A DNA stretch of 36,394 nt from a virus. Below the pieces are notes generated by a model. It saw only the letters and a list, made by a program, of their open reading frames with translations. It searched no databases and had not been told where the DNA came from. The stretch is from IMG/VR virus record IMGVR_UViG_3300048033_000210, positions 1 to 36,394 of that record; one strand, written 5' to 3'. The translations under genes were made by a program, and so were the position numbers. This document shows, piece by piece, positions 1-17,081 of the stretch; position 1 is the first letter of the stretch; each line of letters begins with the position of its first letter.

Positions 1-59
1 AGAACTAGACAAACCCACAGGTATAGCTGGCGAGGCTATGCTTCGTGCTGAGACACCAC
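1..59 (+). repeat. Terminal direct repeat, left copy
   Basis: These 59 bases equal 36336-36394 except base 43 (T here, C at 36378). The difference is silent (Leu CTT versus CTC). They are best read as overlap of a circular or permuted genome. A true terminal repeat is possible but is not needed. Confidence 0.9.
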
Positions 60-1168
60 AGGAACAGTTTAACCTGATTGGTGCAGGGCGTAGGAACCTG
101 ATTATCAATGGTGATATGAAGGTGGCGCAGAGAGGTACAAGTTTTAGCCTAACTGATGATGACTATACATTAGATAGATGGCAGTTTGCCGTTTTTGGTT
201 CTAGTGGTCATGGTACTTACACTGTAAGTCAGGATACTTCTGATTATCCTGTTGGGTACAGAAAGTCTATGAAGATTGACTGCACTACCGCAGATACAAG
301 CATAGCCACTGATGCAGCTATTGTTTTACGACAGCGTTTAGAAGGTCAGGACTTACAGCACCTTGGGTTTGCGACATCCGAAGCGAGGCCTCTGATGTTG
401 TCTTTTTGGATTAAATCTAACCTTACGGGAATAGGTGTTGTAAATCTTTATAACGTGAATGCGAATAAGCACATAGGTGCTACCTATTCAATAAACTCCG
501 CAGACACTTGGGAATATAAAACAGTTCTTATCCAAGGTGATACAGCAAACACCTTTAGTGACGACAACCAAAATCGATTAGAGGTTCGTTTTTATTTTGC
601 CGCAGGATCAAACTTTTCAAGCGGGACGCAAGTTAATACATGGAGTTCTAGAACACCCCAAAATGACGCTGCGGACTTAACTATGGACATCGGGAGTTCA
701 ACCTCCAACTATGTGAACATCACAGGTGTCCAACTAGAACTAGGCAAAGTCGCCACGCCTTTTGAACACCGATCCTTTGGGGAAGAACTGGCGTTGTGCC
801 AGCGGTACTTTCAAAAAAGTACAGAGTATAGCGTGTATCCTGCTAATGGGCCTGATACAAGTAACTTTGCAAGTAGCATGGGGAGCACTTTGAATTTAGT
901 AGGTCTTGCAATCTGGTCTAGTCCAGAACCTATCCAGTTGCCTGTAGAGATGAGGGCTTATCCTACCATGACTAGATATGGAAACAGTCAAGGTTATTGG
1001 GGTTATTTACACCTTGGAACAGCAGGGCCAAGCGGTTTATCTACCATTAACTTCCACTCAAACGTTTATATAGGTGGAACACCTAAGACTGTCTATGTAA
1101 ATAACCAAGTCTCTACAAACCCTATGTGGGGTGTAAAGGGTATGTGGACAGCAGATGCGGAGTTATAA
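1..1168 (+). CDS. Tail fibre/receptor-binding-type protein, C-terminal part (continues from right end)
   Basis: The reading frame is open from base 2. The Met at 38 is internal, because the same frame begins at 36286 at the other end of the window; joined through the terminal overlap the protein is 405 aa. Early on it carries a motif (NLIINGDMKVAQRG) and later a KVATPFEHRSFGEELALCQRYF segment. I recall both from tail proteins of many marine phages. The stretch between looks beta-rich, with Ser, Thr and Asn in abundance and a typical jelly-roll or carbohydrate-binding feel, which would fit a virion surface protein that contacts the host. It is followed 2 nt later by a small gene that may be its chaperone. 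The family assignment comes from recalled sequence style; the exact role is inferred. Confidence 0.75.
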   Translation, partial: ELDKPTGIAGEAMLRAETPQEQFNLIGAGRRNLIINGDMKVAQRGTSFSLTDDDYTLDRWQFAVFGSSGHGTYTVSQDTSDYPVGYRKSMKIDCTTADTSIATDAAIVLRQRLEGQDLQHLGFATSEARPLMLSFWIKSNLTGIGVVNLYNVNANKHIGATYSINSADTWEYKTVLIQGDTANTFSDDNQNRLEVRFYFAAGSNFSSGTQVNTWSSRTPQNDAADLTMDIGSSTSNYVNITGVQLELGKVATPFEHRSFGEELALCQRYFQKSTEYSVYPANGPDTSNFASSMGSTLNLVGLAIWSSPEPIQLPVEMRAYPTMTRYGNSQGYWGYLHLGTAGPSGLSTINFHSNVYIGGTPKTVYVNNQVSTNPMWGVKGMWTADAEL

Positions 1169-1170
1169 TC

Positions 1171-1707
1171 ATGTTTAACATTATCACAGACGAACTAAGC
1201 AACAGTCAAACGCTGTTCTGCCAAACCCACAACCACTACATCCCACTAGACCCTGCAAACCGCCACTATCAGGAAGTGCTAGACGCAATCATTGCTGAAG
1301 GCACAGACTGCTTTGACGGGGATATTCCTGAAGACCTACAGGCAGCGGCAGACGAAAAGCAGTTCAACCAACAGCTTGCAGCCTACCGTGTAGCTACAGC
1401 CCGACTAGCACAATACATCGTTGCAGATGGTCGTGAAGAAGTCACTGAGATGCAGCCTACTGGTGAGCAGGTGTTCAACGAAGAAACAATGGAAATGGAA
1501 GATGTGATGCATGAGGTTATCACAGTCACAGCCATTGAACCTGTTGAGCCTACAGTCACACGCATGGTGTACTCTGAGGATGATCCTATGGCAGAGCCTA
1601 CAGAGGAAACCATTGAGAACCCGCTTATCACAGTGGACAACGAAGAACGTGCAGCGGCTCAGGCTGTTGTCGATGCTACACCACAGGCGGTAAAAGACGC
1701 AGCGTAA
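1171..1707 (+). CDS. Small acidic protein after tail-fibre gene (possible fibre chaperone)
   Basis: The protein has 178 residues starting at ATG 1171, two bases after the upstream stop, with GCGGAG about 8 nt before the start. An earlier ATG at 1126 lies inside the upstream gene and is less likely. The product is strongly acidic in its second half and very rich in Glu, Thr and Val, with an Ala-rich helical C-terminus. No catalytic motif is visible. Position directly after a tail-fibre gene, in the same operon, suggests a fibre assembly chaperone or an accessory fibre protein, but I do not recognise the family. A structural protein of unknown role is the alternative. Confidence 0.7.
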   Translation: MFNIITDELSNSQTLFCQTHNHYIPLDPANRHYQEVLDAIIAEGTDCFDGDIPEDLQAAADEKQFNQQLAAYRVATARLAQYIVADGREEVTEMQPTGEQVFNEETMEMEDVMHEVITVTAIEPVEPTVTRMVYSEDDPMAEPTEETIENPLITVDNEERAAAQAVVDATPQAVKDAA

Positions 1708-1720
1708 CAAAGGATAGGCC

Positions 1721-3571
1721 ATGCCAACGCTAACAGCTAAAACAGGTGGCTTTGGTTGGTCTACCGCATGGTTTCCTGAAGGTGATACTTGGGATGATAC
1801 CTATGCATGGTCTGATGTCCGTGCATGGGGTGAAGATAACGTAATTCCCCTAGCGGTAGCCGAAGCCGCAAATGCTGGTACATTCACAACATCAGGCCAG
1901 AGCGTTACCGAAGACTTACTGGAAAGCATTACCAGTGGCACATTTAGTCTAACAGGTCAGGATGCGCTAAAAGGCATCACAGAGTTGACTACAGGCCAAT
2001 TCTATACGCTTGGTGGGCAAGACATTAATGAAGCCTTACTAGAAGCCATAGACTTCGGCAGCTTTACCATTAGTGGTCAGGCGGCAAACAAGGCACTTAC
2101 CGACAATATTGCTTACGGCAATTTTGTATTTAACGGACGGCCAATCACTGAGGACATCAGTGAGCGCATAGATGTTGGCACATTTGTTATAACGGGCAAT
2201 GCAGTCAATGAAGCATTGCTGGAGCATATCGACCCTGCTAACTTCAATTACGCTGGTGGCATAGCCTCTAAGCTAATCACAGACATATTCGCGCATGGCT
2301 CATTTTCCACTACAGGTCAGGATGCCAGTGTTCACATTACTGAACGTGTGGATGGCGGTAGCTTTACCCTGTCAGGCCAAGACGCTGGCAGGGGCATCAT
2401 AGAACCAGCCGAAGGCACCTCATATAGCGTAGCAGGGCAAGCGGCTGGTGCGGCTTATACTATGCTTGCGGAAGCTGGCCTGTTTGTACTGGCAGATTAT
2501 GAGAATATCCAAAGGCTAGATGTATGGCCCGACACGGGCTATTGGGCTGACAATGAGTTTTGGCTTGATGACGATCTAGTTGATTATGACATCGTTGAAC
2601 GTGCAGATGTCGGCCTGTTTGACTTTGAAGGCATTAGCGTACCGAAGTCAGTCGCAATGGCGGCTGGTACAGGTTATTTCGTACAAGCCTCATACACCGG
2701 CATTCAGCGCAATGACGAATGGCTAGACACTGGCTTCTGGTTAGATGAAGAAGTCTGGTATGATGGCGATCTAATTGACATCGACATTGTTGAACGCGCT
2801 GATGCGGGTGTGTTCAGCCTAGCGGGTCAGGTTGTTCGCAAGAAGATCGTACATTCGTTTGGTGCGGGTATATTTAGCCTAGAAGGGCAAGAAGGCGAAA
2901 AGGCTCTATCTGAACTAGCAGCGGGTCAGTTCTTTACACTTGGTGGTCAGGATATCAATGAAGCCTTATTAGAGGCTATTGATTTCGGCACCTTCAGCAT
3001 TGTGGGTCAGGACGCATTCAAGGCTCTATCTGAAGCGGCCAACGTAGGAACCTTTGTGTTCAATGGCCGTCCAATCACAGAAGACATCAGCGAAAGCATT
3101 GCAGTCGGCACATTTGCGCTAGACGGACAGCCTGTCAACGAAGCACTGTTGGAGCGCATTGACGTAGGCACATTCGCATACAGCGGCGTAGACGCATTCA
3201 AAGGTGTTTCTGAACTTGTTACAGGCGGTACATTCAGCGTCACAGGCCAAGCAATTACAGAGGCAATCAGTGAAAGCCTAGATGTTGGCTTGTTTGCGCT
3301 GGTAGGGCCAGCGGTAAATGAAGCACTGATTGAGCGGATTGACGTTGGTACGTTCAGCTTTGCCTATCAGGATGCGCTACTTTACAAGCCGCGCTATACC
3401 TTTGACGGCGAACTTTCCACTGTAACCCTAGTGACAGGGGAGCCAAACAATGTGGAGTTGGTTGCAACACTAAATTCTGCTACAATTAGCATCAATACGC
3501 CAAACTACGTTGAGTTAGACACTGAATATACGTTAGTTGAACTAACGCAAACAAACAATGAGTACACCTGA
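1721..3571 (+). CDS. Repeat-built virion/tail protein with about 23 short repeats
   Basis: 616 aa with an AAAGGATAGG ribosome site before ATG 1721. After a Trp-rich N-terminus (residues 1-52) the protein is a run of about 23 units, mostly exactly 20 residues, with consensus GTFxxxGQxxxxALxExIDV, from about residue 53 to 563. Two units (about 253-297 and 318-362) are expanded to 45 residues by a Trp- and Asp-rich insert. Units 2-7 (73-192) closely match units 15-20 (383-502), which indicates an internal duplication. The short beta-strand/helix alternation suggests a solenoid or extended fibre. The position between fibre genes and the lysis cassette supports a virion appendage or decoration role. 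No enzymatic motif is seen; the function is inferred. Confidence 0.8.
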   Translation: MPTLTAKTGGFGWSTAWFPEGDTWDDTYAWSDVRAWGEDNVIPLAVAEAANAGTFTTSGQSVTEDLLESITSGTFSLTGQDALKGITELTTGQFYTLGGQDINEALLEAIDFGSFTISGQAANKALTDNIAYGNFVFNGRPITEDISERIDVGTFVITGNAVNEALLEHIDPANFNYAGGIASKLITDIFAHGSFSTTGQDASVHITERVDGGSFTLSGQDAGRGIIEPAEGTSYSVAGQAAGAAYTMLAEAGLFVLADYENIQRLDVWPDTGYWADNEFWLDDDLVDYDIVERADVGLFDFEGISVPKSVAMAAGTGYFVQASYTGIQRNDEWLDTGFWLDEEVWYDGDLIDIDIVERADAGVFSLAGQVVRKKIVHSFGAGIFSLEGQEGEKALSELAAGQFFTLGGQDINEALLEAIDFGTFSIVGQDAFKALSEAANVGTFVFNGRPITEDISESIAVGTFALDGQPVNEALLERIDVGTFAYSGVDAFKGVSELVTGGTFSVTGQAITEAISESLDVGLFALVGPAVNEALIERIDVGTFSFAYQDALLYKPRYTFDGELSTVTLVTGEPNNVELVATLNSATISINTPNYVELDTEYTLVELTQTNNEYT

Positions 3572-3894
3572 TGGCTTTTTATATTAAGCAAAATGACACC
3601 TCGCCTAATCTACGGGCTATCCTGAAAGACGGCGATGAAGACCCAGTTAACCTAACTGGCGCAAGCATTCGCTTTCATATGCGCACTGTTGGCGGTGAAA
3701 CCGCTGTAGTTGACGCTGACGCAAGCATTGTCACGGCAGAAAGCGGCATTGTGCAGTACATCTGGGATGCGGCAGATACGGCCACTGTAGGATCATATCA
3801 GGCTGAGTTTGAGGTTACTTTTGCTGACACATCTGTAGAAACATTTCCGAATAACGGGTATATTCGGATAGAGATTACAGACGACATTACATAG
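3571..3894 (+). CDS. Small Ig-like/baseplate-upper-protein-type domain protein
   Basis: 107 aa. Its ATG overlaps the upstream TGA by one base (TGATG), so translation is probably coupled. The sequence begins with an IKQNDTSP motif and continues with an LTGASIRFHMR segment and a GSYQAEFEVTFADTSVETFP segment. This pattern is typical of the single beta-sandwich domain found at the N-terminus of phage baseplate upper proteins (BppU type) and in small stand-alone phage proteins. It is most likely a virion structural protein partnering the repeat protein before it. The family call rests on recalled motif similarity; no active site is expected. Confidence 0.75.
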   Translation: MAFYIKQNDTSPNLRAILKDGDEDPVNLTGASIRFHMRTVGGETAVVDADASIVTAESGIVQYIWDAADTATVGSYQAEFEVTFADTSVETFPNNGYIRIEITDDIT

Positions 3895-3901
3895 GTCTGA
3901 C

Positions 3902-4174
3902 ATGGCTGACGAAAAGCGATTAGAGCGGATAGAGCAAAAGTTAGACGATATGTCCAAGGCGATTGTGTCTTTGGCGCGTATGGAAGAACGCATGGTGACG
4001 TTGTTCAAGCGCATGGATACCTATGATGACGCGCAAGATAAACTGTCAGACCGCGTGTCAAAGATTGAGAAAGTGTCTGGCGCAGATGGTGTGACATTAC
4101 GGTTTCTGGAACGTATCTTCTGGATAGTCGTAACGGCGGCTGTAACAGCCTACGTTGTCACCCATATGGGCTGA
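3902..4174 (+). CDS. Coiled-coil protein with C-terminal membrane anchor
   Basis: 90 aa. Residues 1-60 are highly charged with heptad-like spacing (LERIEQKLDDMSKAI), which suggests a coiled coil. Residues about 68-88 form a single hydrophobic segment ending in HMG. Small phage proteins with this layout commonly sit at the start of lysis cassettes. It could be a holin-associated or spanin-like membrane protein, but no diagnostic motif separates these options. Its stop overlaps the next start by one base (TGATG). Confidence 0.75.
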   Translation: MADEKRLERIEQKLDDMSKAIVSLARMEERMVTLFKRMDTYDDAQDKLSDRVSKIEKVSGADGVTLRFLERIFWIVVTAAVTAYVVTHMG

Positions 4175-4341
4175 TGTTACTGGTTCTGTACCTAGTAACG
4201 ATTAATCCAGTAATCATTGACGGCCAGAAGACAGTGGTAAAGGTGTGCCACTACGCACCGGCTGAACAGCACAAGTTTCCCAAAACGTGGGGTTTCGTGT
4301 ATAATCCAAACTACAAGTGTCCTGATTTTATGGGTGTCTAA
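4174..4341 (+). CDS. Short hypothetical protein, 55 aa, lysis region
   Basis: The start ATG overlaps the preceding TGA by one base (TGATG) and the stop TAA is at 4339-4341, one base before the next ATG. The product begins MLLVLYLVTINPVII, a hydrophobic N-terminus, followed by a polar part with two cysteines and several His, Lys and Tyr residues. The perfect fit into the gap between two genes, with coupled start and stop, argues that it is real even though it is short. It could be a small secreted or membrane-associated lysis accessory protein. No family is recognised. Confidence 0.6.
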   Translation: MLLVLYLVTINPVIIDGQKTVVKVCHYAPAEQHKFPKTWGFVYNPNYKCPDFMGV

Positions 4342-4342
4342 A

Positions 4343-4795
4343 ATGTTAGCTGAACTTGCGGCCTTCAATGCGGCTTATCAGACGGTGAAAGCCACGGTTC
4401 AGGCTGGCCGTGAAATAGCTTCATGTGCGCAGTCGATTGGCACAATGGTGCAGTCGAAAGACGATCTGCATAAGAAGCTGCAAAAGAAAAAGAACAGCCC
4501 ATTTTCTGCCCGTGTTGAAACTGATCTGGAAGAATTTCTTGCGCTAGAAGACATCAAACAAGCCGAAAAAGACTTGGAATTGCTGATGGTCTACACAGGC
4601 CGGATTGGGTTAAAAGATGATTGGCTGAAGTATCAGGCGCAAGCGCGGAAGGCGCGGAAAGATGCGGAACGTGCCGCAATAAAGCAACGTGAAGAATTGA
4701 TCGAACTGATTGGCTACATAGCCGCTGGTGTTCTTGCGTTTAGCGGTGTGATTGCGGTCATATATGGGTTGGGCGTTTATTTAGGTAAGTGGTGA
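4343..4795 (+). CDS. Conserved phage protein with C-terminal transmembrane segment
   Basis: 150 aa from ATG 4343; an in-frame GTG at 4334 would add three residues. The N-terminus (MLAELAAFNAAYQTVK) and the long Lys/Glu/Ala-rich helical middle, including an LEEFLALEDIK stretch, match a protein I recall from many marine podo- and siphophages next to lysis genes. Residues about 125-145 are strongly hydrophobic, followed by a short basic tail, so the protein is probably anchored in the inner membrane with a cytoplasmic helical domain. The role is unknown; a lysis-regulator or holin-partner function is a guess from its neighbours. Confidence 0.8.
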   Translation: MLAELAAFNAAYQTVKATVQAGREIASCAQSIGTMVQSKDDLHKKLQKKKNSPFSARVETDLEEFLALEDIKQAEKDLELLMVYTGRIGLKDDWLKYQAQARKARKDAERAAIKQREELIELIGYIAAGVLAFSGVIAVIYGLGVYLGKW

Positions 4796-5052
4796 TGAAA
4801 GACGAATGGAAGGCTATATTGGCCTACGTCTATGCCTTCATATGCTTCTTTGATTTTGTCATTGTGCCGTCATGGATAGGCATTAACAGGCCACCGATTG
4901 ATGATCTGGCATATCTAAACATAGAGAAATTCAGGCAAGTCTGGCAGCATCACCAGCCGTTTACATTGCAAGGCGGCGGCATGTTTCATCTTGCCTTTGG
5001 CGCATTGCTAACGGGGTCAGTGATCAATGGTGTTGGTAGAAAGAAAGAATAA
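4795..5052 (+). CDS. Holin-like membrane protein
   Basis: 85 aa. The ATG at 4795 shares its first base with the stop of the preceding gene (TGATG); two upstream GTG codons at 4789 and 4792 are in frame but less likely. Two hydrophobic segments, about residues 8-27 and 62-80, flank a polar loop rich in Pro, Trp and His. The second segment contains FHLAFGALL, a pattern seen in 3TM-type phage holins. It would form or regulate the inner-membrane lesion that releases the amidase. It sits just before a second holin-like gene and the endolysin, which supports the call. Confidence 0.75.
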   Translation: MKDEWKAILAYVYAFICFFDFVIVPSWIGINRPPIDDLAYLNIEKFRQVWQHHQPFTLQGGGMFHLAFGALLTGSVINGVGRKKE

Positions 5053-5137
5053 GTATATCGTTTATGGCAAAGATGGTAAAATAGTGCTGATTACGTCAGA
5101 CAAAAAGATTGCAGAACGATATGCAGATAACACCTGA
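5027..5137 (+). CDS. Possible 36-aa basic microprotein between holin genes
   Basis: An open frame from ATG 5027 to TGA 5135-5137 encodes 36 residues starting MVLVERKNKYIVYGKDGK, with balanced Lys, Asp and Tyr content. It overlaps the end of the preceding holin-like gene by 26 nt and the start of the next holin-like gene by 17 nt. It fills a segment that otherwise carries no gene, and amino-acid use looks protein-like. No strong ribosome site is visible. It may be a true overlapping gene or simply chance. Confidence 0.4.
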   Translation: MVLVERKNKYIVYGKDGKIVLITSDKKIAERYADNT

Positions 5138-5366
5138 ATGGCTAGATAAGTGGCGCATATGGCCGCGCTTAATCATTACTCTGTACGGCTTTGCCTTCTA
5201 TCGCACAACAGAATGGTTCATTAGCCTTGATGCCCCATCAAACGCACAGGCCGGTTACGTTTCGGTAATTGTTGGCGCGGGTGCGGGGTTTTATGGTATA
5301 TACGTCAACGGGCAAAGCCCGAAAACGCAAACGCAGAAGGGAGTATGCGAAAAATGCGGAAAATAA
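5121..5366 (+). CDS. Second holin/antiholin-like membrane protein
   Basis: 81 aa from ATG 5121 (a TTG at 5109 is an alternative). The sequence has WPRLIITLYGFAFYRTTEWF and later NAQAGYVSVIVGAGAGFYG, two hydrophobic segments joined by a short polar loop. I recall this layout from marine phages, where it lies immediately before the lysozyme gene. The C-terminus is polar and Lys-rich. Together with the upstream holin-like protein it could be the holin or its antagonist; which is which cannot be told from sequence. Its 3' end overlaps the amidase gene. Confidence 0.75.
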   Translation: MQITPEWLDKWRIWPRLIITLYGFAFYRTTEWFISLDAPSNAQAGYVSVIVGAGAGFYGIYVNGQSPKTQTQKGVCEKCGK

Positions 5367-6010
5367 ACACTATCATAGTTCACTGTACGGCAACCCGTGC
5401 CGAATGGTGGTCTGACAGATCGGCAGACGCAAAAGCAGCGGAGTGCAAAAGCTGGCACTTAGATCGTGGCTTTTCAGATATTGGCTATCATTATTTGATT
5501 GACCGTGATGGAACAGTCACAGAAGGCCGTCCGATTGATCAGGGTGGCGCACATGCCAAAGGCCGCAATTCCAACTCAGTGGGCATAGCCTTATGGGGTG
5601 GACATGGTGGCGACCAAGATGACCAGTTTGAAGAACATTTTACACCAGAACAGGATCGCGCGTTACGCAGACTGATTGCCCAACTTCGCATGGAGTATCC
5701 GGCAATCGCTACCATCATGGGCCATAATGAAGTTAGCGCGAAGATGTGTCCATGTTTTCAGGTGACAGAATGGCTGAACAACGTAGAGACAAAACCGAAA
5801 AAGCAGAAGACGCACATAGTTCAATCGAAGACAGTGCAAGCCTCGACCATTGCAAAGGTTACATCTGCCGCCACACCCCTTGTTGGTGTTATCGGTGGGT
5901 TAGAGTGGCAGAAGCTGGCACTGATGGGGGTGTTCGCTCTGGTGGGTATGGTAGCACTAGGAATAGTCGATATGGAACGCCTGAAGAAGTGGAATAAAGG
6001 TGATCGCTGA
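5354..6010 (+). CDS. N-acetylmuramoyl-L-alanine amidase (T7 lysozyme type) with membrane-active C-terminus
   Basis: Endolysin that cuts the amide bond between muramic acid and the peptide stem. Numbering from ATG 5354 (218 aa), the Amidase_2 residues align with T7 lysozyme: zinc ligands H10 (IIVHCTAT), H124 and C132, with Y45 and K130 as catalytic partners. The H-K-C spacing of 6 and 8 residues equals that of T7 H122/K128/C130. ATG 5345 is also possible, but the strong site GAAGGGAG ends only one base before it and about 10 nt before 5354. Unlike the 151-aa T7 enzyme it has an extra tail of about 70 residues, basic and then hydrophobic (about 187-206), ending in a charged stretch. That suggests membrane association. 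Confidence 0.93.
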   Translation: MRKINTIIVHCTATRAEWWSDRSADAKAAECKSWHLDRGFSDIGYHYLIDRDGTVTEGRPIDQGGAHAKGRNSNSVGIALWGGHGGDQDDQFEEHFTPEQDRALRRLIAQLRMEYPAIATIMGHNEVSAKMCPCFQVTEWLNNVETKPKKQKTHIVQSKTVQASTIAKVTSAATPLVGVIGGLEWQKLALMGVFALVGMVALGIVDMERLKKWNKGDR

Positions 6011-6249
6011 TGTTCCTATTAGCTAGATTGAAAATGTACCTTTGGATCATTGGCGCGGCACTGGTAGCCGTTGTGACGGTCTACTTTCGCGGGAAAGCGG
6101 ATGGTCGGCATGATCTGGAAGGTGAAATAAAAGACAAGCGTATTGACGATATGCTGACCGCAAAGGAAGTAGAAGATGAAGTTGAAGCCTTGGATGATGA
6201 TATGTTGCTTGATCGTGCCAATAAGTGGGTGCGCAAGCGTGACGGGTAA
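6010..6249 (+). CDS. Inner-membrane spanin subunit (Rz-like)
   Basis: 79 aa. Its ATG overlaps the amidase stop (TGATG). Residues about 9-26 form a single N-terminal transmembrane segment, followed by a charged helical domain (GKADGRHDLEGEIKDKRI) expected to lie in the periplasm. A gene for an outer-membrane lipoprotein starts inside it in another frame, which is the classic Rz/Rz1 arrangement. The pair would fuse inner and outer membranes at the end of lysis in a Gram-negative host. The periplasmic part is shorter than that of lambda Rz. The assignment is by architecture, since spanins share little sequence. Confidence 0.85.
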   Translation: MFLLARLKMYLWIIGAALVAVVTVYFRGKADGRHDLEGEIKDKRIDDMLTAKEVEDEVEALDDDMLLDRANKWVRKRDG

Positions 6250-6382
6250 TGGCTACTGCGATATTGCCAAGCCACACTATTTTGCAGATCAACAAGTGAC
6301 GGCTTGGTTGCTGCACAATGACCGGCAGCTATTCACAGATACGGTAGTGCATAACGAAACCTATGAACGGTTGTGCGGTTAG
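6176..6382 (+). CDS. Outer-membrane spanin lipoprotein (Rz1-like)
   Basis: 68 aa, starting within the Rz-like gene in a different frame and overlapping it by 74 nt. The N-terminus MKLKPWMMICCLIVPISGC is a lipoprotein signal peptide whose lipobox ISGC places the acylated cysteine at residue 19, leaving a mature peptide of about 50 residues. GGAAG stands about 5 nt before the start. The partially embedded, shifted-frame layout with a lipobox is the defining pattern of two-component spanins. Unlike lambda Rz1 it is not proline-rich. Its stop overlaps the stop of the convergent HNH gene by 4 bases. Confidence 0.85.
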   Translation: MKLKPWMMICCLIVPISGCASVTGNGYCDIAKPHYFADQQVTAWLLHNDRQLFTDTVVHNETYERLCG

Positions 6383-6735
6383 TCTTCTTTTTCGCCTTCC
6401 CGTTCCGTCCAGTGATAAATGCGGTGACAGTTCGCACATAAGGCCAAGCATTTACTGGCTTCCTCATAAGCCTTTTTGAAGCTGCCTTGCTGGATTAACT
6501 TACTAACCTTGGCATCATCACCGCCGGTTTCAGGGTGGTGAAAGTCAATAATCGCGGGATGGCTTGCCCCACAAAAAAAGCAGCTTTGCGCTGCCTTGAA
6601 TTCTCTAAACTTTTCCCGTTGTTCTTTCTTTCGCTTTCGTGTGCGTTCAAGCGTTATTTCACGGTTGCGCTGATACCAATCCGCACCGTATTCCTTCGCA
6701 TGACGTTTACGCTTATCCTTGTCCTTATAGGGCAA
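6379..6735 (-). CDS. HNH endonuclease, small zinc-binding type
   Basis: 118 aa, reading leftward and ending tail-to-tail with the spanin gene. The N-terminus is very basic (KDKDKRKRHAKEYG). The C-terminal half has the HNH layout: CFFCG, then IDFHHP, then CANCHRIYH, so four cysteines form the structural zinc site and the HH pair provides the catalytic histidine. The first codon of this version is TTG, and the frame stays open further upstream without an ATG in the part I read, so the start is uncertain. Phages use such small HNH proteins as homing nucleases or packaging and recombination helpers; which applies here is unknown. Confidence 0.85.
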   Translation of the reverse strand: MPYKDKDKRKRHAKEYGADWYQRNREITLERTRKRKKEQREKFREFKAAQSCFFCGASHPAIIDFHHPETGGDDAKVSKLIQQGSFKKAYEEASKCLALCANCHRIYHWTEREGEKED

Positions 6736-6787: not shown

Positions 6788-6994
6788 TCAATTAGTCGGG
6801 CGTAGCTTTGGCCTGATGGATTTCGACAAAACGCCAGTGTTTTCGCAAAATAAATCGGCGTTCAATGCTTCGGCCAATCGTTCGTTGTCGCGGATGGCAA
6901 TCTGGCATTGTTCTGCATTTTGCAGCGGCATATGTATATCCAACGGACTGCCAGCCAAGGTGTAGGAAATTGTAAAAATATAGAAGAATTCCAT
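6788..6994 (-). CDS. Small hypothetical protein with hydrophobic N-terminus
   Basis: 68 aa beginning MEFFYIFTISYTLAGSPL, an N-terminal hydrophobic stretch that could be a signal peptide or membrane anchor, followed by a polar helical part with two cysteines (EQCQIA and DLFCENTG). AGGA lies about 10 nt before the ATG. It is the first gene after the inverted-repeat element at 7023-7133 on this strand, so that element would sit in its leader. I recall similar short exported proteins from alphaproteobacterial phages, but none has a known function. A disulphide-bonded periplasmic protein is possible. Confidence 0.65.
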   Translation of the reverse strand: MEFFYIFTISYTLAGSPLDIHMPLQNAEQCQIAIRDNERLAEALNADLFCENTGVLSKSIRPKLRPTN

Positions 6995-7022
6995 TGCGGT
7001 GGTTCCTGTATTTGATAGAAAT

Positions 7023-7133
7023 ATCGTGTGGGACGTTACCAGTTATTCAATCAAGCTATGCCACGGGAATGGTCTAGGCGCGTTTGGATGGCTACCAGCT
7101 ATAGCCCGACACTTTAGCAACGTCCCACACGAT
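7023..7133 (-). ncRNA. Candidate structured RNA or miniature inverted-repeat element
   Basis: Perfect 15-bp inverted repeats, ATCGTGTGGGACGTT at 7023-7037 and its complement at 7119-7133, close an 81-nt interior. Inside are further short complementary pairs: GGCTA/TAGCC at 7090-7094 and 7102-7106, GCC/GGC at 7060-7062 and 7077-7079, and the palindrome GCTATAGC at 7098-7105. TACCAG(T/C)TAT occurs twice, at 7037 and 7093. The element starts one base after the stop of the leftward gene at 7135 and ends 29 bases before the next leftward start. A multi-branched RNA (leader element or small RNA) is the simplest reading. A short transposon-like repeat is the alternative, though no flanking target duplication is evident. 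Confidence 0.5.
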
Positions 7134-7134
7134 T

Positions 7135-7500
7135 TCATTTCAAGTTATGCCTCTTAATGGCCATTGTGATGGTTGATCTAGCCTTGCCAAGCTGGTTGGC
7201 TATTTCGGCTTGATTTAGGCCGCGCTTTAGGCCGCGTTCAATCATTTCGATCAAGTCTTTCTTGCGGATTTCCTTGCCGGTTGCGCTGATCTTTGGACGG
7301 CCACCAAGCATGGCATTTTGTTGGCTTGCCTTAATGGCTTCCCATGATTGGGTGCCTAGCTTCTTTTTCATTAAATCCTGTTCTGCCTTACATACTTGCC
7401 GCATGATGGGCATAACCTTTAGCCATGTATCTTCATTTACGGGTGTTCCCTTTGGCCACTTAAACCTAGCTGCGTCAAACTGGTGTGCCTGTAATGTCAT
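7135..7500 (-). CDS. Helix-turn-helix DNA-binding protein
   Basis: 121 aa. The C-terminal 30 residues form a helix-turn-helix (GLNQAEIANQLGKARSTITM, about 94-113) of the type found in resolvases and small regulators. A GGRPK segment about 25 residues earlier resembles a minor-groove-binding hook. The N-terminal half is helical and charged with no recognisable domain. It is likely a sequence-specific DNA binder or transcription regulator of the leftward genes. Its start lies inside the end of the 58-aa gene upstream. No invertase catalytic serine region is present, so it is not a full recombinase. Confidence 0.75.
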   Translation of the reverse strand: MTLQAHQFDAARFKWPKGTPVNEDTWLKVMPIMRQVCKAEQDLMKKKLGTQSWEAIKASQQNAMLGGRPKISATGKEIRKKDLIEMIERGLKRGLNQAEIANQLGKARSTITMAIKRHNLK

Positions 7501-7651
7501 CTGTTTTCCCTTTTATTTTATGTGAAATGACATGTTCTGCTATTTGACGGATTTCGTCAATTTCGCCTTTAGTATGGTTTGGGTTTGCCTTATGTGCCGC
7601 GCACAGCCGCACAATCCGCTTCAGATATTCAATTTCCTGATTTTCTGTCAT
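7475..7651 (-). CDS. Hypothetical 58-aa protein
   Basis: The frame from ATG (complement of 7649-7651) to TGA at 7475-7477 encodes 58 residues beginning MTENQEIEYLKRIVRLCAAH. The first half looks helical, and the rest is Lys-, His- and Ile-rich. It overlaps the start of the helix-turn-helix gene by 26 nt and begins within the end of the zinc-ribbon gene, so it fills the operon without a gap. AGGT precedes the start. No family is recognised. It is a typical small early or accessory phage gene. Confidence 0.65.
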   Translation of the reverse strand: MTENQEIEYLKRIVRLCAAHKANPNHTKGEIDEIRQIAEHVISHKIKGKTDDITGTPV

Positions 7652-7817
7652 GGTTTACCTGTATTGTTATAATTGACTTGTGGCCACTGCCGCCGCACCA
7701 AAGACACTGTTCATGTATGCGGTGCGGCTGACCATCGTAGTTATATTGTACTTCAGTTTGATACCCCTTACCAAAGCATTGTCGGCAAGGGGTGCTAGGG
7801 TCTTCAATGCGCATCAT
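7629..7817 (-). CDS. Small zinc-ribbon protein (DnaJ-like CxxCxGxG)
   Basis: 62 aa from ATG at 7817 (MMRIEDPSTPC). Two motifs, CRQCFGKG and CLWCGGSG, are arranged like half of a DnaJ zinc-binding module and should coordinate one zinc ion. The sequence ends in a basic tail. Its start overlaps the end of the upstream gene by 14 nt (translational coupling); an open frame extends 10 codons further upstream to 7847 but lies wholly inside that gene. Such mini zinc-ribbon proteins are common in phages, and their partners are unknown. Confidence 0.75.
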   Translation of the reverse strand: MMRIEDPSTPCRQCFGKGYQTEVQYNYDGQPHRIHEQCLWCGGSGHKSIITIQVNHDRKSGN

Positions 7818-8016
7818 GGGGCGTTTCCACAGACTGATCGGCCACATAGGGTGAAACCATTATGTCGGCCAGTTCCCACCCGCTAGGCATGGCGTTGTTG
7901 CGCCGTACAGCGGGAATGTGAAGATATGACCCCACTTCACTTGGGAAGCCAGTTGTGCGGTAGTGGTAGCCGTCATGGATCAGGTCGATGTTCATAGTTA
8001 GATCACGGTATTTCAT
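7804..8016 (-). CDS. Hypothetical 70-aa protein
   Basis: 70 aa beginning MKYRDLTMNIDLIHDGYHYR. The ATG directly abuts the stop of the ParB-like gene (TAA then ATG), so the two are likely co-translated. The protein is His-, Tyr- and Asp-rich, with no membrane segment or known motif. It ends in HDAH, overlapping the zinc-ribbon start. The function is unknown. Confidence 0.65.
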   Translation of the reverse strand: MKYRDLTMNIDLIHDGYHYRTTGFPSEVGSYLHIPAVRRNNAMPSGWELADIMVSPYVADQSVETPHDAH

Positions 8017-11322: not shown

Positions 11323-11328
11323 GTAAAA

Positions 11329-11368
11329 AGAACCCCGTAAGTTCGAGCGATAAGACTTACGGGGTTCT
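11329..11368. terminator. 14-bp perfect hairpin after the SSB-like gene
   Basis: AGAACCCCGTAAGT (11329-11342) is exactly complementary to 11355-11368, with a 12-nt loop. On the plus strand no T-run follows; on the minus strand the hairpin is followed by CTTTTT. So it may be a terminator for antisense transcripts, a bidirectional terminator, or an RNA end-stabiliser between the SSB-like and HNH genes. Confidence 0.65.
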
Positions 11369-11383
11369 TACACTGCGTGTAAG
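11367..11383 (+). other. Second small hairpin overlapping the first
   Basis: CTTACAC (11367-11373) pairs with GTGTAAG (11377-11383) around a 3-nt loop. Its left arm shares two bases with the right arm of the preceding 14-bp hairpin. It ends 16 nt before the HNH start at 11400, so the two stems could influence read-through or translation. Confidence 0.45.
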
Positions 11384-16616: not shown

Positions 16617-17081
16617 ATGTCGTCAATGAGTGAAGTTGCGCAACATTTGAACACAAGTCAGCAAGCATTGTCTAAGCTGATTGAGGATGGCGTAATAGAC
16701 AAACAACCGCGTGGACAATATGACATAGATGAAGTCCGTGCGCAGTACATAAAACATTTTCGCGCGATTGCTTCAGGCCGCGCTGCATCTGGTGACTTAG
16801 ACTTGGGGGCTGAACGTGCGCGATTGGCGAAAGAACAAGCTGATGCCAAAGAAATGGAAAACGCGATTGAGCGTGGCGACTTGGTATATATCGAAAAAGT
16901 GGCGAAAGAGTTCGAAACGCAATTACTCAAAGCTAAAACTAAGTTACTGGCGATGCCGTCCAAAATAGCGGCTGAAGTTCACGCAAGTGCAAACGTGAAG
17001 GAAGCCAAGGAATTGATTGAACTAAACATGCAGGATGCATTAAGTGAACTGGTCGGATACGGTAGACAAACAACAGACTGA
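16617..17081 (+). CDS. terS: Terminase small subunit (lambda Nu1-like)
   Basis: 154 aa; AAGGGGG precedes ATG 16617. The N-terminal MSEVAQHLNTSQQALSKLIE is a winged helix-turn-helix like lambda Nu1, which binds the packaging start site. The region after about residue 60 is a charged helical linker for multimerisation and TerL contact (ERARLAKEQADAKEMENAIE, a typical Nu1-family stretch). The C-terminus overlaps the TerL gene by 38 nt. It would recognise the viral DNA and load the large subunit for genome packaging. Confidence 0.88.
   Translation: MSSMSEVAQHLNTSQQALSKLIEDGVIDKQPRGQYDIDEVRAQYIKHFRAIASGRAASGDLDLGAERARLAKEQADAKEMENAIERGDLVYIEKVAKEFETQLLKAKTKLLAMPSKIAAEVHASANVKEAKELIELNMQDALSELVGYGRQTTD

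Follow-up and report, generated by a model that had tools for sequence, protein, structure and literature searches.

A candidate family of structured RNAs that directly follow stop codons in two groups of marine phages

The Staphylococcus Rsa RNAs and RNAIII carry UCCC loop motifs, and the packaging RNA (pRNA) of phage phi29 is a phage RNA with a terminal helix and a three-way junction. The element described here resembles the Rsa RNAs and RNAIII in presenting UCCC in a hairpin loop, which could meet GGGA-containing ribosome-binding sites; however, no homology to them is seen (no Rfam match), and its complementarity to one neighboring gene extends over only five bases. With pRNA it shares a broadly similar size, a terminal closing helix, and a three-way junction, but its phage is of a different kind, with a large terminase and a portal, and Rfam again gives no match. 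The general kind to which the element can be compared, that of phage-encoded or 3′-UTR-derived small RNAs, is treated in a review (PMC12197685). Like such RNAs, the element is a short structured RNA on the gene strand that follows a stop codon within a block of phage genes and exposes a C-rich loop. Unlike the named examples, which it matches in neither sequence nor structure, it is a predicted transcript, and it combines a three-way junction with a long-range closing helix.

Searches against Rfam 15 at the gathering score returned no match for the element in the window or in five of its relatives (L002, L016, L057, L060, and L061), and at an E-value threshold the same sequences gave nothing but chance-like matches. 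The best of these sub-threshold matches was rox2 (23.3 bits where the cut-off is 55; E 0.057), an insect RNA whose likeness to the element is confined to long arms around a loop; we took it as chance. The element represents a new family of phage structured RNAs, ~110 to 135 nt long and without an Rfam counterpart, of a general kind that is already known.

The element and its gene neighborhood

The window, by which we mean the whole stretch of DNA analyzed, is the 36,394-base IMG/VR virus record IMGVR_UViG_3300048033_000210, from an uncultivated marine phage. Its terminase, portal, and capsid match those of Roseobacter phages CRP-811, CRP-831, and CRP-406, which are members of the CRP-822-type roseophage family, a type for which 279 UViGs have been described (PMC12629253); judged by these matches, the window phage is related to the CRP-822-type roseophages. 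Plus-strand genes occupy the window from ~9076 onward and in the lysis region (1–6382). A divergent minus-strand block runs from 8871 to 6379, head-on with the plus-strand lysis region, and its position and content (small proteins and an HTH protein) suggest that it is an early block.

Within this block, the element lies between a gene predicted to encode an HTH_38-like DNA-binding protein of 121 aa (7135–7500, minus strand), whose stop codon abuts it, and a small gene of 68 aa (6788–6994, minus strand), which also follows the element in the close relatives L002 and L003. The last gene of the leftward block is HNH endonuclease-like (6379–6735, minus strand; PHROG 3106, E 6e-22). The same block encodes a small CxxC zinc-finger protein (7629–7847, minus strand) that weakly resembles a Q-like antitermination PHROG (E 8e-4). 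In both phage groups discussed below, a small CxxC zinc-finger protein is encoded upstream of the HTH gene, at this site in the window and at 16836–17060 in L045.

An earlier note on this DNA had described exact 15-bp terminal inverted repeats, beginning one base past a stop codon and ending shortly before another gene start on the same strand, and this description is accurate. The sequences ATCGTGTGGGACGTT (7023–7037) and AACGTCCCACACGAT (7119–7133) are complementary at 15 of 15 positions, with 81 nt between them; a single base, 7134, separates the element from the minus-strand HTH stop at 7135, and a minus-strand ATG at 6994 lies 28 nt beyond it. First-order Markov simulations predict 0.017 perfect 15-bp inverted repeats with a spacer of up to 200 per window, whereas two were observed. 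The other repeat, at 11328–11369, has a 12-nt loop and lies between an SSB-like gene and the next ORF; it has no clear T run and looks like an ordinary hairpin or terminator.

On the minus strand, which is the gene strand, the closing helix (P1) grows to 19 pairs when G–U pairs are included, joining a 5′ arm at 7115–7133 (RNA AUCGUGUGGGACGUUGCUA) to a 3′ arm at 7023–7041 (RNA UGGUAACGUCCCACACGAU). Comparison of folding energy with shuffled sequence, as proposed in the earlier note, yielded z-scores of −6.1 on this strand and −4.8 on the plus strand. A conserved 17-nt motif, CUAGACCAUUCCCGUGG (7061–7077, minus strand), is identical in L002 and L003 and in L016 and L017 of the second phage group, and its last 12 nt (7061–7072) can form the hairpin CCAU-UCCC-GUGG. 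A structured interior, which had also been claimed, stands as a property of the family but not in the form of the window's own minimum-energy interior, since the GUCGGGCUAU/AUAGCUUGAU pairing is absent from relatives. The best window fold, which joins GUCGGGCUAU and AUAGCUUGAU, is more stable by only 0.5 kcal/mol than an alternative that contains both P1 and the UCCC hairpin. A simple terminator had been thought unlikely, and the element does not have the form of an intrinsic one, a short-loop GC hairpin followed by a T run: it has an 81-nt loop and no T run and is not listed by a terminator scan. Neither a promoter nor a terminator is conspicuous at this site, and ARAGORN reported no tRNA or tmRNA in the window.

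Relatives in two phage groups

Further copies in other genomes were sought, and homologs were found in three close contigs and in a second phage group. The three IMG/VR contigs (L002–L004), reached via the HTH protein, form family A together with the window. The element follows the same stop codon in all of them, and the neighboring gene product is 77 to 78% identical to the window HTH protein. The arms of these relatives are GGGGGACG/CGUCCCCC, the differences between L002 and L003 beside the closing stem are compatible with pairing, and the interior of the family A elements keeps GUGUCGGGCUAUAGC and CUAGACCAUUCCCGUGG.

The second group, family B, was reached through a 16-base motif and has almost no other genes in common with the window group. 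Scanning IMG/VR with TAGACCATTCCCGTGG gave two further phage contigs, L016 and L017, which share only two, weakly similar, proteins with the window. In these contigs the HTH protein encoded just upstream is 277 aa long (HTH_23), and a scan with this protein led to further contigs with variant copies of the element. The family B RNA lies directly after a stop codon whichever gene is upstream, usually a small hydrophobic ORF. The upstream gene is swapped for a 181-aa ORF without a Pfam match in L053 and L054 and for another ORF in L057 and L058, with the RNA retained. In total, ten distinct copies of the element were aligned, and CCAUUCCCGUGG is identical in all ten.

Downstream of the family B RNA, the next gene is convergent and nothing follows on the same strand. 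This arrangement bears on a role as a leader, one of the readings offered in the earlier note, or as a riboswitch or antitermination element for the following 68-aa ORF (6788–6994), a role that suits the small gene starting shortly downstream in the window and in L002 and L003. Because no same-strand gene follows the element in the second group, only a convergent gene cluster, we regard such a role as improbable and not as general to the family; moreover, Rfam gives no known riboswitch or ribozyme.

Immediately upstream of the RNA, genes have been inserted or replaced by others at L053 1623–2300, L054 2534–3190, and L059 3831–4353. Two small genes in L059 lie between near-copies of GTCGCAATAATATTTTGARRTCG, which suggests recombination at this boundary. 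L059 also gave the impression of a cassette between short repeats, a reading that was rejected because the contig ends there.

Other searches delimit the distribution. An IMG/VR scan with the exact arms found nothing, because the arms are the varying part, and among 18 matches to a 15-mer the element was present only in those already known. Motif matches in L064 and L065 were rejected as a coding match, and pattern matches from a genome collection (L018–L021) were rejected because they look like chance. No similar DNA was found among 50,697 phage records. Searches of 385 alphaproteobacterial and of 398 phylum-level genomes returned no homolog either, both being weak negatives without a positive control genome. 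CRP-811, CRP-831, and CRP-822 have no credible copy, and no cultured phage carries a confident one.

Closing helix, strand, and the invariant hairpin

Five family B sequences, and no window sequence, went into a covariance model, R1. Over 25 loci (289 kb), R1 found all complete family B copies, and its best match outside family B was the window element at 7022–7134 on the minus strand, at full length (21.2 bits, E 0.013 for 289 kb). L003 and then L002 came next, with nothing else up to E 10 among these loci. Run unfiltered on the window alone, the model gave E 0.0016 at 7022–7134 minus, and 12.1 bits on the opposite strand at the same place. The match to the window, which sets the 5′ end of the whole RNA at 7134 and its 3′ end at 7022, is evidence for homology, strand, and borders together. 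It is no proof that the window has the same interior arms as the second group.

In the cultured roseophage CRP-406, an 8-bp repeat, TGGGGGAA/TTCCCCCA, with ~90 nt between its halves, directly follows the CRP406_14 stop (L010 6353–6466). This gap resembles the element in position and in the 8-bp repeat only; its R1 score is no better than the genome background and its fold no better than shuffles, and it was rejected as a counterpart.

Most family B sequences fold as a three-way junction. Its parts are a short outer helix (GUC/GAC or GAUC/GAUC), the closing helix P1, and two arms. The upper hairpin of P2 (CGUUG/CAACG) varies but retains GGC in its loop, and P3 (UCAUC/GAUGA and CGAG/CUUG) ends in CCAU-UCCC-GUGG. 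L051 and L052 favor an alternative P2 pairing. For family A a CGGG/CCCG pseudoknot was considered and dropped; the second group has nothing that corresponds to it.

Compensatory changes in relatives, the test proposed in the earlier note, are present both in the P1 arms and in an alignment of the family (A6). P1 shows exchanges between U–A and A–U, between G–C and C–G, and among C–G, U–A, and G–C, with an extra A–U pair in L061, and P2b in the second group alternates between AAUGU/ACAUU and AAAAG/CUUUU. Counted by hand, P1 arms pair with their own partners at 9/9, 8/8, 9/9, 9/9, and 10/10 positions without a broken pair, whereas arms swapped between the two groups pair at only 5 to 7 of 9 to 10. 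In A6, double-sided changes occur in 10 of 30 pairs, compared with 3.8 in shuffles (0 of 500 shuffles reach 10), and 92.9% of cells pair, compared with 85.3% in shuffles and 30 to 47% with the partner slid. Because A6 was model-fitted to the structure and leans toward it, more weight belongs to the hand count of P1 and to the independent model. The family B sequences are close relatives of one another, which is a further limit of this alignment. No copy departs from the UCCC hairpin, and one of its invariant pairs, a U–G pair, would be standard on the gene strand only.

Comparison of the copies thus far aligned demonstrates homology across the two phage groups, the strand and boundaries of the element, and a closing helix kept through compensatory changes; for the second group it likewise demonstrates a three-way junction, one arm of which terminates in the invariant CCAU-UCCC-GUGG hairpin. 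That the element is a conserved structured RNA is, on this comparative evidence, highly probable. Of the readings in the earlier note, a structured or small RNA is the one that the compensatory changes uphold. Coding sequence is unlikely, because the lengths of L016 and L051 differ by five bases.

These results also bear on readings in which no RNA need be made. A miniature mobile element, likewise put forward in the note, would explain the short length and the perfect terminal inverted repeats. Each virus record holds a single copy, no target-site duplication is seen, and the arms diverge between relatives yet stay complementary; this is not the pattern of a MITE, and since single copies and covarying arms argue against it, we consider this origin very improbable. 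A recombination, replication, or packaging site acting in DNA as a cruciform or single-strand hairpin might likewise use terminal inverted repeats, and the gain and loss of genes just upstream loosely recalls cassette sites. However, the conserved G–U pairs are strand-specific, R1 scores the gene strand at 21.2 bits and the other at 12.1, and in 190 alphaproteobacterial genomes, where no conserved host target or attachment site was seen, the 17-mer is no commoner than a reversed control; a DNA-level function is thus improbable. A chance inverted repeat without function, for which the small number of close relatives might speak with no other support, is the least credible reading of all given the simulated expectation and the covarying homologs in the second phage group.

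Possible modes of action

In the aligned contigs the family RNA is encoded on the strand of the gene block and comes immediately behind a stop codon, where the block ends or is close to its end. The leftward block would be expressed early, and the RNA would be cut out of the early transcript's 3′ end or would form that end. During infection it would then act in trans, and its exposed UCCC loop would make the contact with an RNA or protein of the host or the phage. The loop is invariant on a variable scaffold, and we therefore envisage a conserved recognition partner and prefer a small RNA derived from an early transcript at its 3′ end. We advance the trans-acting mechanism tentatively, at somewhat below even likelihood, and a conserved structured RNA that acts in this way, taken as one proposition, likewise falls a little short of even.

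Its close rival is a cis-acting 3′-end element of the mRNA, which we judge possible but doubtful. Here the long helix would block 3′ exonucleases or would be an RNase III cutting or processing site, setting the stability or segmentation of the transcript, and the UCCC loop would bind a processing or protective protein. The fixed place after a stop codon, at or near the block end in many contigs and behind any upstream gene, is consistent with such a role, as is the very stable closing helix of 19 pairs in the window. P1 has only 8 to 10 pairs in most relatives, however, further genes follow in family A, and a mere stabilizer would have no need of an invariant 12-nt hairpin sequence.

For the preferred trans-acting small RNA, one possible partner can be named as a lead only. 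The loop sequence UUCCC is complementary to GGGAA. Of 40 starts checked in the window, only the start of the adjacent HTH gene has GGGAA upstream (AAGGGAAAA, 7500–7525). GGGAA also precedes the HTH gene start in L002 and L003 but is absent in family B; this five-base match was noticed afterwards, and no target common to both groups was found.

A bolder proposal, which we consider unlikely as it stands, is that the family is a new early-expressed RNA class, shared by distantly related groups of marine phages, whose invariant UCCC hairpin, borne on a three-way-junction scaffold, serves to take over or inhibit a component of the host. The host component may be ribosome-binding sites, an RNA-binding protein, or a defense sensor.

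Structured RNAs of marine phages are poorly catalogued. The present element has a defined boundary and strand, a closing helix, an invariant loop, and a fixed operon position, and its ten distinct aligned copies, together with the covariance model, allow targeted searches of marine viromes and transcriptomes. Its recurrence in two phage groups with almost no common genes suggests a selected function in infection.
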